This document shows, one piece after another, positions 17,870 to 21,609 of a stretch of 22,402 bases of DNA. Numbering within the stretch: position 1 is the stretch's first letter; each line of letters opens with the position of its first letter. Location: IMG/VR virus record IMGVR_UViG_3300033052_000115, positions 1-22,402 of that record; one strand, written 5' to 3'. Both the position numbers and the translations under genes were made by a program. The stretch is from a virus. The notes below the pieces were generated by a model. The model was not told the origin of the DNA. It did not search any database and saw only the letters and a program-made list of their open reading frames with translations.

Positions 17870-18088
17870 ATGAAAGAACAATCAATGAGCAAAATGAGCG
17901 CGCCCGAGCTGGGCAGCTATGCCGGCGGAGCTACCGCCATCGGCGCATCCCTGACGCTGACCGAGATCGGCGTCATCGTCGGCATCATCACCGCCCTGCT
18001 GACATTCGCCATCAACGCGATCTATACATACCGCAGGGATCGGCGCGAGCAGGCTGAAACCGACGCCCGGCTGGGGATCGGTAAATGA
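17870..18088 (+). CDS. holin, HP1 family-like
   Basis: The 72-aa product has the pattern GSYAGGATAIGASLTLTEIG, then a hydrophobic segment about 34-54 (VIVGIITALLTFAINAIY), then a basic tail (YRRDRREQ). This matches small phage holins of the HP1 type. It should form membrane lesions or depolarise the membrane to trigger lysis. Met codons at 17870, 17885 and 17894 are all possible starts; 17870 has GGGG 12 bases upstream and none has an ideal site. It overlaps the endolysin start (ATGA). Confidence 0.85.
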   Translation: MKEQSMSKMSAPELGSYAGGATAIGASLTLTEIGVIVGIITALLTFAINAIYTYRRDRREQAETDARLGIGK

Positions 18089-18561
18089 ACCGGCGCGCCG
18101 CTGGGCTGGCCGGTATCGTCGGCGCCGTCGCAACAGCCGCTCTCCTCGCCTTCACGCCCACCTGGGAAGGCACGAGGCTGACCACCTACCGCGACTTGGG
18201 CGGCGTACTTACCTACTGCACCGGCGCCACCGAGAACGCGGCCTGGGGCCGGACCTACACGCCGGAGCAGTGCCGCGCGCAGCTCGACCGCGACCTTGAG
18301 CGGCACGCGGCCGGCATCGCCAGATGCATCCCGATGGACCGGCTGACGGATGGCCAGCGCGTGGCCTTTGTCGATGCCGCCTACAACATCGGCGTCTCGG
18401 CCTTCTGCGGATCCAGCATGGCACGCCGGGCCCGGGCTGGCGACATGCGCGGCGCGTGCGATGCCCTGCTGATATGGGACAAGGTGGATGGTCGGCAGGT
18501 GCGCGGCCTGACGCGTCGACGCCAGGCTGAGCGCGAACTGTGCCTGCGGGGGCTGGCATGA
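18085..18561 (+). CDS. SAR-type endolysin, GH24 lysozyme
   Basis: The 158-aa product is a phage lysozyme that cuts peptidoglycan glycan strands. The catalytic triad E28-D37-T43 keeps the exact 9 and 6 spacing of T4/P21-type enzymes, within WEGTRLTTYRDLGGVLTYCTG. YNIGVSAFCGSS and the RRQAERELCLRG ending are also typical. Residues 5-24 (AAGLAGIVGAVATAALLAFT) form a weakly hydrophobic Ala/Gly-rich segment, the usual signal-anchor-release type, so export by Sec and later release from the membrane is likely. It overlaps holin and Rz by ATGA. Confidence 0.92.
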   Translation: MNRRAAGLAGIVGAVATAALLAFTPTWEGTRLTTYRDLGGVLTYCTGATENAAWGRTYTPEQCRAQLDRDLERHAAGIARCIPMDRLTDGQRVAFVDAAYNIGVSAFCGSSMARRARAGDMRGACDALLIWDKVDGRQVRGLTRRRQAERELCLRGLA

Positions 18562-19061
18562 CCGCGCTCCACCGCCTTCTGTGCACCGTCCTGGCCGTGG
18601 TGCTGTTGGTGATTGGCGCGTGGCTCGGCGTTCGCCACTACAGCGCGGCGCGATACCAGGCCGGCTGGGATGCCGCCGTGGCAGCCGGCAAGGAACAGCG
18701 TGACCGCGACGCGGCTCTGGCCCGCGAAACCGAAACGGCCCTGCGCGCGCAGCTGCACGCCAGGGACACCGATGCCCATCGAAAGGAACAGGAATATGCA
18801 ACGAACCTCGAAGCTGCTCAGCGCCGCGTGCGTGCTGGCGTTGACAGCCTGCGCTGCCCCGCAAGGCCAGTACCAGCCGGCGCCGAGGCCGGTGATCGAC
18901 CCGCTGCCGCCGGACCTGCAGTTGACGGAGAAGGATCGGCAATTGTGCCGGAGGCTGCTGCAGAGATTCTCGGCGACGCCGCGGACATTGGACGAATCAT
19001 GCGGAACTATGACCGTGTCGTCGAGAGGTTTGAAGCCTGCAGGGCGGCAAACGAAAACTGA
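18558..19061 (+). CDS. Rz: i-spanin Rz
   Basis: ATG 18558 overlaps the lysozyme stop (ATGA) and gives 167 aa; an upstream in-frame start at 18540 is less likely. The N-terminus has one membrane segment (about 7-25), followed by a long charged helix (about 35-100) that would span the periplasm, then a Pro/Ala-rich stretch and a C-terminal helix ending RNYDRVVERFEACRAANEN. It should pair with Rz1 to fuse inner and outer membranes at lysis. The 3' third is overlapped by Rz1 in the +1 frame. A decayed copy of its end lies at 20596-20765. Confidence 0.88.
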   Translation: MTALHRLLCTVLAVVLLVIGAWLGVRHYSAARYQAGWDAAVAAGKEQRDRDAALARETETALRAQLHARDTDAHRKEQEYATNLEAAQRRVRAGVDSLRCPARPVPAGAEAGDRPAAAGPAVDGEGSAIVPEAAAEILGDAADIGRIMRNYDRVVERFEACRAANEN

Positions 19062-19077
19062 TGCGACCCGCCCGTAG
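18796..19077 (+). CDS. Rz1: o-spanin Rz1, lipoprotein
   Basis: This 93-aa ORF starts inside Rz in the +1 frame and ends 16 bases beyond it, so the pair is overlapped rather than fully embedded. AGGAA precedes ATG 18796. The signal peptide ends in lipobox LTAC with C19 as the lipidated residue. A Pro-rich stretch follows (APRPVIDPLPPDL) and then a helical part with CRRLLQRF, as in o-spanins. It is expected in the outer membrane, bound to Rz. Confidence 0.88.
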   Translation: MQRTSKLLSAACVLALTACAAPQGQYQPAPRPVIDPLPPDLQLTEKDRQLCRRLLQRFSATPRTLDESCGTMTVSSRGLKPAGRQTKTDATRP

Positions 19078-19078
19078 C

Positions 19079-19513
19079 TTACGCGTCACGCATGATCTCT
19101 GGGATGCAGCGTCCTGTCCCCTGCTTGAACCATTCGTCGATGACCTTCGGCCAGCCGCGCTGCTGGCGGCTAACGTTCGAATTCATGTAGATGACCATCT
19201 CGGTACCAGATTGCACAGGGCGCAGGCGCTGGATGTAGGCCACGGTGTCGCCCGACAGCCACGTTACGATAAGCTGACCATCGCCATCGGCCGCCTCATC
19301 CCGTCTGTGGTCGCCGCCGCACTGCGTTGCGATGCTGCGTAGCTTACCCATGACCTCGTCGACTGGCTTGTCGACTGTCACGGTCAAGCTCGCCGTCGAG
19401 CGGTTGGCGATTATGTCCTTCGGAACGTCTTTGGTGAACAGGCCGGCGTTCGTGTGCCCGCTGAGTAGGAGTGCCCCGGCCATTCCAGCGAAGGTGGCAA
19501 CGTTATTCTTCAT
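19079..19513 (-). CDS. small secreted protein of unknown function
   Basis: Convergent to the spanins, one base past the Rz1 stop. I chose ATG at 19513 because MKNNVATFAGMAGALLLSGHTNAG is a clear signal peptide; the open frame upstream has no such feature. Cleavage probably follows NA at about residue 23, leaving roughly 120 aa. The mature part has SLTVTVDKPVDEVMGKLRSI, WLSGDTVAYIQRLRPV and a C-terminal CIPEI; C65 and C136 could form a disulphide. No lipobox Cys is present. The family is not recognised. It is a possible lysogenic-conversion gene set between Rz and mini-gene A. No good ribosome site is visible. Confidence 0.6.
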   Translation of the reverse strand: MKNNVATFAGMAGALLLSGHTNAGLFTKDVPKDIIANRSTASLTVTVDKPVDEVMGKLRSIATQCGGDHRRDEAADGDGQLIVTWLSGDTVAYIQRLRPVQSGTEMVIYMNSNVSRQQRGWPKVIDEWFKQGTGRCIPEIMRDA

Positions 19514-19544: not shown

Positions 19545-19772
19545 CTAGCGGATGGAAAAGCGGTCGACAAGAAGTTTGACCGGTAGCGACAACGCTCTTG
19601 CCTCAGCATATGTGCGGCGCTGCTTGGGATGTAAAAGTACCCGGCGAGCGAGCTCGAGCGGGATGCCCAGCCGGAATAGCTCTGCCGCGCCGGCAGGGAC
19701 ACCGTGCGATCCGGCCATATTCACGGCCAGGTCGACATGGAAGGCGGTCAGGCGGTCAGTTCTTTTATGCAT
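19545..19772 (-). CDS. RTD/LTA mini-protein, paralogue A
   Basis: The 75-aa ORF belongs to a family with three members here. Residues 1-53 align without gaps to paralogues B (37 identical) and C; 27 positions are the same in all three, including RTDxLTA (4-10), D14, A16, AGA (27-29), LF (32-33), G36-x-P38, ARR (42-44), LL (46-47) and QRR (51-53). The stretch AGAAELFRLGIPLELARRVL resembles a helix-turn-helix, which is only an inference. There is no signal peptide or membrane segment. The C-terminus after residue 53 is unrelated to B and C. Conserved sequence continues upstream of the ATG to an FNR-like site. I do not recognise a named family. Confidence 0.65.
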   Translation of the reverse strand: MHKRTDRLTAFHVDLAVNMAGSHGVPAGAAELFRLGIPLELARRVLLHPKQRRTYAEARALSLPVKLLVDRFSIR

Positions 19773-19805
19773 TCAGAAAGAATAACAGGCACCCGACTAC
19801 TAGGC

Positions 19806-19820
19806 TTGAGCCAGGTCGAA
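19806..19820 (-). promoter_or_regulatory. possible FNR/CRP-type site upstream of mini-gene A
   Basis: TTGAGCCAGGTCGAA (+ strand) begins 34 bases upstream of the mini-gene A start, exactly the distance of the better-formed site before mini-gene B. The intervening 33 bases also share CATTCAG, AAGAAT and CAGGC at identical offsets. The dyad itself is weak, so this is supported mainly by comparison with B. Confidence 0.35.
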
Positions 19821-19861: not shown

Positions 19862-20437
19862 TTACGACTTCCGGCGACGTGAGAAACCCAAGCCGGCCAT
19901 GGCTAAACCAATTAGGGCAATCGATCCCGGTTCAGGAATGCGGGTATTCGTACGATCGTCCGTATACCATCGCACAAACGTCATATTTGAATATGTGTCA
20001 TTTATACCAAGACCAGAGATCGATTCAATGCGGTCGGGCATTTCAACAGCATTGTGAAATGCTATCGCTTTTACCATGTCGTCTTCCAGCAGATAAGGGG
20101 TAAAGAACCAACAGTCTCCGCCGAAGTCACACCCTGGAATTAGTGGGTTGAACTCAGAACCGTAAAAAACCTGGTTCGCAAGAGCCTCAGTAGCTGCCCA
20201 TGCTGACTCATAATTTTTGAAGCGAAAACCAACGTTGTCGCATCGCACTGCGAAGCTGCAAGGGCCTGCAAGGAAGTCAACGTTGTAGCTCGTACTGTTA
20301 ACAATAATACCTTTGACTCCCGTTAATGCTCCACTTTCATAAATGTAGGTAGGAGCCGCGTTTGCGCTTGTTGCAACTAATGCAGCTGAGAAAGAGAATG
20401 CTTTAAGAAGCGTTCCATATTGACGCGCAGTCTTCAT
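19862..20437 (-). CDS. PEP-CTERM sorting-domain protein
   Basis: The 191-aa protein has an N-terminal signal peptide ending near ANA (about 27) and a classic C-terminal PEP-CTERM signal: P168-E169-P170, a hydrophobic helix about 172-186 (SIALIGLAMAGLGFS), then RRRKS. Such proteins are processed by exosortase and usually linked to exopolysaccharide or floc formation. C60, C66, C103 and C109 could form two disulphides. The body (VDFLAGPCSFAVRC, DDMVKAIAFHNAVEMP) is not a named domain I recognise. Codon use is more A+T-rich than the phage genes. It needs a host exosortase, so it looks like host-derived cargo. A sigma-54 promoter lies at the proper distance upstream. Confidence 0.9.
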   Translation of the reverse strand: MKTARQYGTLLKAFSFSAALVATSANAAPTYIYESGALTGVKGIIVNSTSYNVDFLAGPCSFAVRCDNVGFRFKNYESAWAATEALANQVFYGSEFNPLIPGCDFGGDCWFFTPYLLEDDMVKAIAFHNAVEMPDRIESISGLGINDTYSNMTFVRWYTDDRTNTRIPEPGSIALIGLAMAGLGFSRRRKS

Positions 20438-20595
20438 TTGGGATCCAATAGAGTTTGACCTTTAATAACAAGCAAACTTTGTGCCATAAAAACTATTCTT
20501 TAATAATCAAAAGGTTGTAGTTTTGATAGTTTCGTAATGTAAATTTTTACGACACTGGTAGAGCCGATAGCTGGCATCAGCAATTCGAATCCTCA
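20438..20595 (-). promoter_or_regulatory. A+T-rich promoter region of the PEP-CTERM gene
   Basis: This non-coding stretch is visibly A+T-rich. It contains the sigma-54 promoter (20471-20486), an ATCAAAA/TTTTGAT inverted repeat (20506-20527) and a second dyad TCGTAA/TTACGA (20532-20552) with an inner GTAAA/TTTAC. Relative to the predicted transcript start near 20460 the second dyad lies about 70-90 bases upstream, the usual place for an enhancer-binding protein. No ORF is seen. Confidence 0.55.
20471..20486 (-). promoter_or_regulatory. sigma-54 promoter (-24/-12)
   Basis: Read on the - strand, TGGCACAAAGTTTGCT matches TGGCACGNNNNTTGCW at every fixed position except the G. GG and GC are 12 bases apart as required. 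Transcription should start near 20460, about 23 bases before the PEP-CTERM ATG at 20437. PEP-CTERM genes are known to be driven by RpoN with the PrsK/PrsR system in some betaproteobacteria, which fits. Confidence 0.75.
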
Positions 20596-20765
20596 GGTGG
20601 ACTAACCGCAACTGCCGGAACTACAGTTTACGAATAAGGACCAGACCTGGTGCCTGAGGATACTGCAGAGATTCTCGGCGACGCCACGCACCCTCAGCGA
20701 CTTTTGCGGAACTACGGTGCGTAGTCGAGCGGTTCGAAGCCTGCCGGGCGGTGAACGCGAAATAG
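20596..20765 (+). pseudogene. decayed 3' end of a second Rz/Rz1 spanin pair
   Basis: This stretch aligns with about 18890-19061 of the intact spanins. In the Rz1 frame it reads LPELQFTNKDQTWCLR, then ILQRFSATPRTL, then FCGTT. In the Rz frame it reads TAEILGDATHPQRLLRNYG and, after a one-base deletion, VVERFEACRAVNAK followed by TAG at 20763. CTGCAGAGATTCTCGGCGAC is identical to the functional copy. The 5' part with signal peptide and membrane helix is gone, so it cannot work. It is a remnant of another, related lysis cassette. Confidence 0.85.
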
Positions 20766-20926
20766 TCGCGACGCTGGCCGGGTTGGAGCAGCACCCGCCG
20801 GGCCAGCTCGAGCGGCAGCCCCAGATCAAACAGCGCGCGGGCGCCCGCAGCGACGCCGTGCGACTCGACCAAGTTTAGCGCGAGATCAATATATACGGCG
20901 GTCAGGCGGTCAGTTCGATTGTTCAT
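20621..20926 (-). CDS. RTD/LTA mini-protein, paralogue B
   Basis: The conserved core is residues 1-53 (20768-20926), 37 of 53 identical to paralogue A without gaps: RTDRLTA, DLA, SHGV, PLELARRVLL and QRR are shared. The core ends two bases from the stop of the convergent Rz remnant; after DY the 101-aa frame simply runs antisense through that remnant, so the C-terminal half may not be native. The same SHGVxAGA to ARRVLL block suggests a helical, possibly DNA-binding fold. There is no signal peptide. It is shared with A both in coding sequence and for at least 45 bases upstream. Function unknown. Confidence 0.65.
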   Translation of the reverse strand: MNNRTDRLTAVYIDLALNLVESHGVAAGARALFDLGLPLELARRVLLQPGQRRDYFAFTARQASNRSTTHRSSAKVAEGAWRRRESLQYPQAPGLVLIRKL

Positions 20927-20959
20927 TCAGCAAGAATGGCAGGCCGCCAGCGCTCGGGT

Positions 20960-20973
20960 TTGATCTAGCTCAA
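20960..20973 (-). promoter_or_regulatory. FNR/Anr-like box upstream of mini-gene B
   Basis: TTGATCTAGCTCAA differs from the FNR-family consensus TTGAT-N4-ATCAA at one base. It is centred about 40 bases upstream of the ATG. Mini-gene A has a related sequence at the same distance, and C has a more distant TTG-containing stretch at 21278, also 34 bases upstream. Control by an oxygen-responsive regulator is inferred. Confidence 0.45.
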
Positions 20974-21031
20974 CAGTCCACATTGTCCTTGTCGGTGTCG
21001 GCGAGCTTGATTCGGTCGATATGGCAGTCGC

Positions 21032-21244
21032 CTAGGCAGTCTGAAGCTGGCCGGAAGGTGAACTCTTCTGATCCCCGTAATCTCGCCGCCGTTGACCGAC
21101 CCGAAGGAGTATCCGGCGAGCGTCTACGATCGGCATGCCCAACCGGAACAGCTCCGCGGCGCCGGCAGCAATGCCTGACGAGTCCGCAAGTCTAATTGCC
21201 ATGTCTACATGAAGGGCGGTCAAACTATCGGTTCTGATGCGCAT
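21032..21244 (-). CDS. RTD/LTA mini-protein, paralogue C
   Basis: The 70-aa ORF keeps the whole 53-residue core (21086-21244) without gaps: RTDSLTA, HVDMA, AGAAELFRLG, ARRILL and GQRR. It is the most divergent of the three. Like B, it continues with a DY and then runs antisense over the spanin remnant (SSPSGQLQTA). Its upstream region faces the + strand gene at 21310, so the two starts are divergent with about 65 bases between. Function is not recognised. Confidence 0.6.
   Translation of the reverse strand: MRIRTDSLTALHVDMAIRLADSSGIAAGAAELFRLGMPIVDARRILLRVGQRRRDYGDQKSSPSGQLQTA
21036..21063 (+). pseudogene. possible third Rz 3'-end remnant
   Basis: This 28-base stretch matches 20729-20756 (the EACRAVN part of the Rz remnant) at 21 positions without gaps. 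In the same frame it reads SEAGRKVN. It lies in the same place relative to mini-gene C as the longer remnant does to B: convergent, just past the conserved core. Alone it is too short to be certain; the matching layout supports it. Confidence 0.45.
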
Positions 21245-21309
21245 GTAAGTACAGTAGCATGCTTAGGCTGTCCGGAATTGGAAAATCGACTAAATGCTAC
21301 ACTCGGCGC

Positions 21310-21609
21310 ATGTTCGGAAAAGTGAAACGCCTGCGCAACGCGGGCAAGCGCCTCTCGGACCTCGATATCGGCCGGTCGGACTTCGTCCAGGGCGAGGTGC
21401 GCGTCTATGGCATGGCCGGTGTGATCATGGCCAGTGTCACCAACGCGGATAGCCAGGTGGGCGCGTCGCTGCTGCCGGACCTCTACCACGCACGCCTGAT
21501 CACGATGCATGGCCACGGCATGCTGCTGTACGGCGAGGAAAGGCCGCAGGGCGATGCTGGGCCGGCGTACGTGCAGGAGTGGTCAGTGATGGTCGGGGCA
21601 GGGGGCTAG
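21310..21609 (+). CDS. conserved-looking small protein, unknown function
   Basis: I chose ATG 21310 (MFGKVKRLRNAGKRL) over the upstream in-frame ATG at 21259, because the extra 17 residues are cysteine/basic and cover a likely promoter. The 99-aa protein has a basic N-terminus, then a beta-type body (DFVQGEVRVYGMAGVIMASV, ARLITMHGHGMLLYGEERP, YVQEWSVMVG). There is no signal peptide or membrane segment. High G+C and strong codon bias mark it as a real gene. TGCTACACT, an extended -10-like sequence, lies just upstream at 21295-21303, so the transcript could have almost no leader. Family not recognised. Confidence 0.6.
   Translation: MFGKVKRLRNAGKRLSDLDIGRSDFVQGEVRVYGMAGVIMASVTNADSQVGASLLPDLYHARLITMHGHGMLLYGEERPQGDAGPAYVQEWSVMVGAGG

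Follow-up and report, generated by a model that had tools for sequence, protein, structure and literature searches.

A small array of three related mini-genes lies beside the lysis genes of the window (the whole stretch of DNA that was analysed, a 22-kb fragment and virus record of 22,402 bases), and the region is best explained as the att-proximal end of a Massilia-type prophage. Taken as a whole, it appears reasonably probable that this array at the prophage end was built by stepwise joining of lysis arms, which would have left an Rz scar, and that its members would be transcribed from an FNR-type leaderless promoter. The features are given in Table 1.

Table 1. Lysis genes, mini-genes and promoter elements, in positions of the window
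Feature	Position	Strand	Basis or nearest relatives
Endolysin, current lysis cassette	18085..18561	+	phrog_7 endolysin, E 4e-47
Intact Rz, inner-membrane spanin	18558..19061	+	phrog_2466 Rz-like spanin, E 1e-6
Intact Rz1, out of frame, partly inside Rz	18796..19077	+	lipobox-like LALTAC; phrog_16495 Rz-like spanin, E 0.015
435-bp inserted gene, 144 aa, signal-peptide-like N terminus	19079..19513	-	window-specific
Mini-gene A, 75 aa, facing the intact spanin cassette	19545..19772	-	L004 (77% aa), L008
Extended -10 of A, TGTTATTCT, 6 nt before ATG	19779..19787	-	upstream alignment
FNR-type box of A, TCGACCTGGCTCAA, 1 mismatch	19806..19819	-	pattern scan
PEP-CTERM protein gene, low G+C, upstream of A	19862..20437	-	PF07589, 28.5 bits
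A+T-rich junction between the two putative arms, about 37% GC	20438..20595	.	base composition
Rz/Rz1 3'-end scar, broken	20596..20765	+	repeats 18891-19061
Mini-gene B, 101 aa ORF, conserved core 20768-20926	20621..20926	-	ORF and family comparison
Extended -10 of B, TGCCATTCT	20933..20941	-	upstream alignment and pattern scan
FNR-type box of B, TTGAGCTAGATCAA, exact	20960..20973	-	0 mismatches
Mini-gene C, 70 aa, divergent from the gene at 21310	21032..21244	-	L006 (77% aa)
Extended -10 of C, TGCTACTGT	21251..21259	-	upstream alignment
Place of the degenerate FNR-type box of C, AGTCGATTTTCCAA	21278..21291	-	upstream alignment
Extended -10 of partner gene, TGCTACACT, 6 nt before ATG	21295..21303	+	sequence; element also in relatives
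Divergent partner gene, 99 aa, ATG 65 nt from the ATG of C	21310..21609	+	54 relatives in viral_contigs

As in the spanins of the lambda type, the current pair of the window consists of a normal Rz with an out-of-frame Rz1 partly within it, whereas the second copy, at 20596-20765, is a broken 3' stub. Rz has the hydrophobic N terminus of a membrane segment and homologues with 60-69% identity in L004, L009, L012 and L164, and the Rz1 counterparts in L004, L009 and L012 are 64-76% identical to the Rz1 of the window. When the region was compared with phage records at the DNA level, the endolysin alone matched. The order proposed by the sequence-only reading, from the intact Rz/Rz1 through the 435-bp open reading frame (19079-19513, minus strand) to A, was confirmed from the coordinates. 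This 435-bp gene was never present between the spanin and the mini-gene of relatives, and a search for its relatives in viral_contigs and in the 62 genomes of the genus of G001 found none. A homologue (62%) of the PEP-CTERM gene lies directly upstream of an A-type mini-gene in L049/L220; a PEP-CTERM protein seems unusual as prophage cargo.

The three minus-strand mini-genes belong to one family and share a 137-nt repeat with 70-72% nucleotide identity, and the proteins of B and C are 55% and 50% identical to that of A. Substitutions in the mini-gene cores are concentrated at codon position 3, with 13, 6 and 28 at the three positions between A and B, 11, 8, 32 and 11, 6, 24 in the L017/L060 pairs and 3, 1, 27 between L013 and L048, and the third-position excess is also seen between array members with decayed stubs. 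Judged from these sequence counts, what selection keeps in the mini-genes is the protein.

A 170-bp remnant of Rz/Rz1 had been described two bases from the core of B, and it is real, with a score of 134 against a maximum of 27 in shuffled sequence. It comprises only the 3' 170 bp of the spanin pair, is 72.9% identical to the Rz of the window, 72.9% to that of L009 and 74.1% to that of L012, and contains a one-base gap, a frameshift and stops in all frames, and does not form an open reading frame. Only 2 nt separate its stop codon (20763-20765) from the B core (20768). The intact equivalent of this junction is found in L009, which with L046 is the nearest relative of B, and in which the mini-gene has 72 aa and ends 54 nt inside Rz. 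The tail of B is an antisense reading through the scar, and B has 101 codons versus about 72 because the one-base gap in the scar shifts the frame past the stop found in L009. A second, 28-bp Rz-like remnant claimed beside C was not above chance: the best match there, 17 of 21 nt to the scar of B, was equalled by 4 of 500 shuffles with eight Rz references tried, and a wider scan gave a score of 24 against a shuffle maximum of 29. Instead of three versions of one layout, the window holds one intact and one broken spanin end.

The relatives comprise Massilia genomes and IMG/VR contigs obtained from searches, in which 50 phage-type loci were classified. In L004, L009, L012, L029, L046 and L048 a window-type Rz/Rz1 is the direct neighbor on which the mini-gene converges, several of the pairs overlapping, so that the arrangement of Rz and mini-gene side by side without the 19079-19513 gene does exist. 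Spanins of a second type are the convergent neighbor in L011, L031 and L032, and the mini-gene converges on or adjoins a DUF1353-like gene, named from sequence resemblance, in L005, L008, L014 and L069. As the nearest recognized opposing gene, 17 of the 50 loci had a spanin of the window type, 11 had one of the second type (either intact or as a stub) and 8 had a DUF1353-like gene, with 14 in which the opposing gene was unrecognized; convergence on a spanin or other end-of-lysis gene was found in 36 of 50, and 28 of these had intact or partial spanin matches. The convergent layout in relatives makes the association of spanin and mini-gene real. The sequence-only reading had held that mini-genes free of any spanin would reduce this association to chance, and such mini-genes do occur, as chromosomal paralogues and in phages with the DUF1353-like gene in that place; what the mini-gene is linked to is therefore the terminus of the lysis operon and of the prophage, not spanins as such. 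The suggested accessory slot between Rz and the mini-gene is weakly supported: a space of about 0.3-1 kb is found there in a minority (L185, L191, L015, L189, L213 and the window), and most relatives have no room for it.

It might be argued that the mini-gene transcript is an antisense RNA acting on the spanin genes, with the ORF incidental, since the mini-gene of L009 shares 54 nt with the spanin 3' end, and those of L011, L031 and L032 extend into Rz1 in the antisense direction. We find this most improbable in view of the third-position excess and the conserved protein core, the varying nature of the gene opposite the mini-gene (two spanin types, DUF1353-like or none) and the existence of chromosomal mini-gene paralogues without a spanin. 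Our preferred reading, in which the protein is what counts, is that the mini-gene, which has its own promoter and is oriented against the phage operon, probably serves as an accessory gene (moron) under host regulation at the end of the prophage; it points away from the prophage end, against the late lysis operon, and its own end lies at or near the spanin stop codon.

Spanin scars were not confined to the window. In about ten additional mini-genes, 42-207 nt of a spanin 3' end are present, with a common starting point and often in tandem arrays. Stubs of the second-type Rz1 are present in L013/L014, L016, L017 (two), L030, L060 (three) and L070, and start at about nt 164 of the mini-gene, where intact relatives have the Rz1 stop. 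The distal mini-gene of L016 has the stub and a second, degenerate mini-gene faces an intact spanin pair, while in L013 the distal, partner-side mini-gene has the stub and a second one faces the DUF1353-like gene. Two chromosomal arrays contain 4 mini-genes with 5 Rz1 fragments (L218) and 3 mini-genes with 3 Rz1 fragments (L219). As a rule, stubs are kept by the older mini-genes farther out, and the one closest to the current cassette has no scar; the window fits this rule, as A faces the current cassette and B retains a stub. A putative DNA adenine methyltransferase gene, named by resemblance, was also seen among the scarred mini-genes of two related arrays (L218, 9689-10477; L017, 6353-7048).

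The earlier proposal of repeated recombination or integration leaving scars is supported by the recurrence of this scar type in other phages and in chromosomal arrays (L013, L016, L017, L218, L219), and successive exchange is also backed by A, B and C having their nearest relatives in different phages. The best reading is one of successive lysis-arm replacements or tandem-prophage deletions, each leaving an older mini-gene and a spanin stub. The array would have been built stepwise: a lysis arm consisting of the intact Rz, the inserted gene, A and the PEP-CTERM gene would have joined an older prophage end consisting of B, C and the partner gene, through recombination or through deletion between tandem prophages, and a join inside the old Rz would have left its 3' end beside B as the scar. 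The Rz-A-PEP-CTERM segment looks like one arm because L220 also has a PEP-CTERM gene upstream of an A-type mini-gene, and B-C-partner looks like the other, with the two apparently joined in the A+T-rich 20438-20595. The direction of the swap and a benefit to the host are inferred.

Plain tandem duplication within one phage, in which unequal crossing-over copied a unit of Rz 3' end plus mini-gene and the copies then diverged, would account for the unit being repeated in the same order in one genome and for A and B being 70% identical in nucleotides. It is nevertheless very unlikely, since the nearest relatives of A (L004/L008), B (L009/L046) and C (L006) are not one another, and the scar is no closer to the Rz of the window (72.9%) than to those of L009 (72.9%) or L012 (74.1%). 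A recent duplication of A, B and C was rejected, as their nearest relatives lie in different foreign phages. That the mini-gene is a mobile cassette, picking up the ends of neighboring genes as it moves, seems barely credible: copies are indeed many per genome (1-10) and form tandem arrays, but the scars are always spanin 3' ends with one starting point, and no terminal repeats were seen around the units.

A closer competitor to the replacement of a lysis arm by recombination is that related prophages integrated in tandem at a single att site and a deletion followed; we consider this rather unlikely. The module lies at the prophage end, with tRNA genes close by in L008, L046 and L119 and another next to the lone relative of C in L006, and deletion between tandem prophages would give the same product; however, the junction had no tRNA or Rfam match, and no partner gene is left between A and the scar. 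No att core was found at the 20438-20595 junction, so that tandem integration stands as a conjecture. A decayed tRNA at the junction, proposed from the words TTCGAATCC and GGTAGAGC near 20555-20600, was rejected because the spacing is wrong and both ARAGORN and Rfam were negative. The closest relative of C (L006, 6001-6408) stands alone, with a tRNA-Gly gene at a distance of about 100 nt, and resembles a prophage relic at an attachment site.

The upstream regions of the mini-genes align gaplessly on the ATG, with TTGA-N6-TCAA at -47 to -34 and an extended -10, TGnTAnnnT, at -15 to -7, separated from the ATG by six bases. Among 53 dereplicated upstreams, exact boxes numbered 17 and, within 150 nt, all lie at -47, -48 or -49; the extended -10 at -15 was found in strict form in 23 and with one mismatch in 40. 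The chance expectation of the FNR-type box is 0.05, even allowing up to 2 mismatches, and the promoter pattern fits only A and B in the window. We searched with a pattern of box, -10 and spacing, using the reversed pattern as a control. In the 62 genomes there were 10 matches, of which 6 were mini-genes, and none with the control. In viral_contigs, all 14 of the 14 newly read matches with an ORF of at least 56 aa were family members, although L102, L105, L122 and L129 count as such through an iterated profile only. The -10 ends 6-7 nt before the ATG, and 39 of the 53 upstreams have no SD-like tetramer, the exceptions being mostly chromosomal copies. The mini-gene mRNA is therefore predicted, from its promoter layout, to be probably leaderless and FNR-activated, with a transcript that would start at the ATG itself. 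The main chromosomal group (MDRRTDYKTALL) keeps the -10-to-ATG spacing and has no FNR-type box; leaderlessness is least certain in that group because its TTAGGAT could be a ribosome-binding site. Members of this conserved paralogue lie beside a LysR-type gene, for example in L024, L025, L026, L036, L038, L041, L043, L045 and L050.

Class II Fnr promoters have the site TTGAc/t-N4-g/aTCAA centered mostly at -40.5 to -42.5 (PMC7713065). The mini-gene TTGA-N6-TCAA, centered at about -41 and accompanied by a -10 element, is of the same kind, and the box near -41.5 is exact in B, has 1 mismatch in A and is degenerate in C. The mini-gene promoter differs in that its transcript is predicted to lack a leader, its target is a prophage gene, and its box is common to a divergent promoter that the box would overlap. 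Activation would come from a regulator of the CRP/FNR family bound at this class II site, most likely the oxygen-sensing FNR of the host; we infer this identity, as well as the transcript start and expression in lysogens. A canonical FNR was found in six of the six Massilia-type genomes checked, all of which carry these genes, with CX2CX5C, a later cysteine that precedes EIPF, and the motif ExxSR in the recognition helix. The same genomes have a second conserved CRP/FNR-family regulator (L152-L157) with no N-terminal cysteines and the recognition helix ETVSR, and this relative speaks for the idea that the box is bound by another regulator, either a FixK/Dnr-like FNR relative or a phage protein. 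We judge that idea decidedly unlikely, since the sequence and position of the mini-gene box agree with class II Fnr promoters (PMC7713065) and a canonical FNR is found in all six genomes checked.

In its usual arrangement the mini-gene diverges from a second, probably leaderless gene, here 21310-21609, whose promoter overlaps the same box and might be shut off by binding there. A mini-gene stands opposite the partner gene in 34 of 52 usable loci (31 plus L187, L211 and L215), at a distance of exactly 65 nt, as in the window, in 15 loci, and it is missing in 18 of the 52, showing that it is not universal. In 36 of the 52 usable loci GCTACACT lies 6-8 nt before the partner ATG. The FNR-type box falls at -32 to -19 of the partner gene, and a regulator bound there would probably block it. 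Among the 32 contigs with a length of 30 kb or more, 21 have the partner gene no farther than 2.5 kb from the contig end, and this position, together with the nearby tRNA genes, places it at a prophage end. A LexA-type box (TACTGTACGCCCATACAGTA and variants; TACTG-N10-CAGTA-like) instead overlaps the partner promoter in L182, L184, L190, L194-L197, L199 and L203, which suggests that the partner gene is under SOS control in another phage lineage. In many relatives (e.g. L118, L139, L143) the partner -10 lies within a short inverted repeat, AGTG-CTA-CACT, that may be an operator. Ten of 12 partner-gene proteins matched phrog_5560, of unknown function (best E 1e-5), whereas the protein of the window itself reached only E 0.029 over half its length. 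The AF2 model of the partner protein is beta-rich with a pLDDT of 92.7; a Ran-binding/PH-like fold was considered and rejected, as the best PDB matches (E 0.02, TM about 0.5) were not convincing.

The mini-genes are an undescribed family of small proteins of about 65-75 aa, found in many prophages and in every one of the 62 genomes searched from a single Massilia-type genus (that of G001), at 1-10 copies each, which in many genomes include the conserved copy beside the LysR-type gene, with family E-values that are modest for the most diverged short members. The product had no significant match in Pfam, PHROGs or NCBIfam, and no match to the mini-gene was found in 50,697 phage records. The AF2 model of the protein has three to four helices and a pLDDT of 65.8, and it gave no usable PDB match; a lone low E-value in the search for a PDB sequence relative, to a 32-residue stretch of 8erw, was taken as helical composition and set aside. 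One guess is that lysogens produce it as a small helical protein, basic at one end, which is perhaps a regulator or an exclusion factor.

In phage lambda, bor adjoins Rz; the bor annotation was absent from the lambda copy that we examined. Both lom and bor of lambda are expressed in lysogens (PMC7067206). The mini-genes resemble such bor-type moron or lysogenic-conversion loci in being accessory genes that have a promoter of their own, sit close to the lysis end and are directed against the late genes. They differ in that the mini-gene protein is unrelated, an FNR-type leaderless promoter is predicted, and the mini-genes have a divergent partner gene and form arrays with spanin scars.

Mosaic exchange among phages is usually inferred from whole-genome comparison, while the broken spanin ends mark single events and their order at one spot. 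The promoter of the family is regular enough for new members to be found by it alone. Should the FNR reading hold, prophage accessory genes would be tied to the oxygen state of the host in a direct and testable way; we found no report in the literature of such a link in this group, and it seems unreported. It is tempting, as a tentative speculation only, to join three elements in one reading: a two-gene oxygen switch at the prophage end, in which a host FNR site would activate the leaderless mini-gene and shut off the divergent leaderless gene 65 nt away, a related lineage with a LexA-type box over that second gene, and retention of the mini-gene. If this were true, the prophage would read both the oxygen and the DNA-damage state of its host, and the mini-gene would be valuable enough to survive repeated swaps of the lysis cassette.
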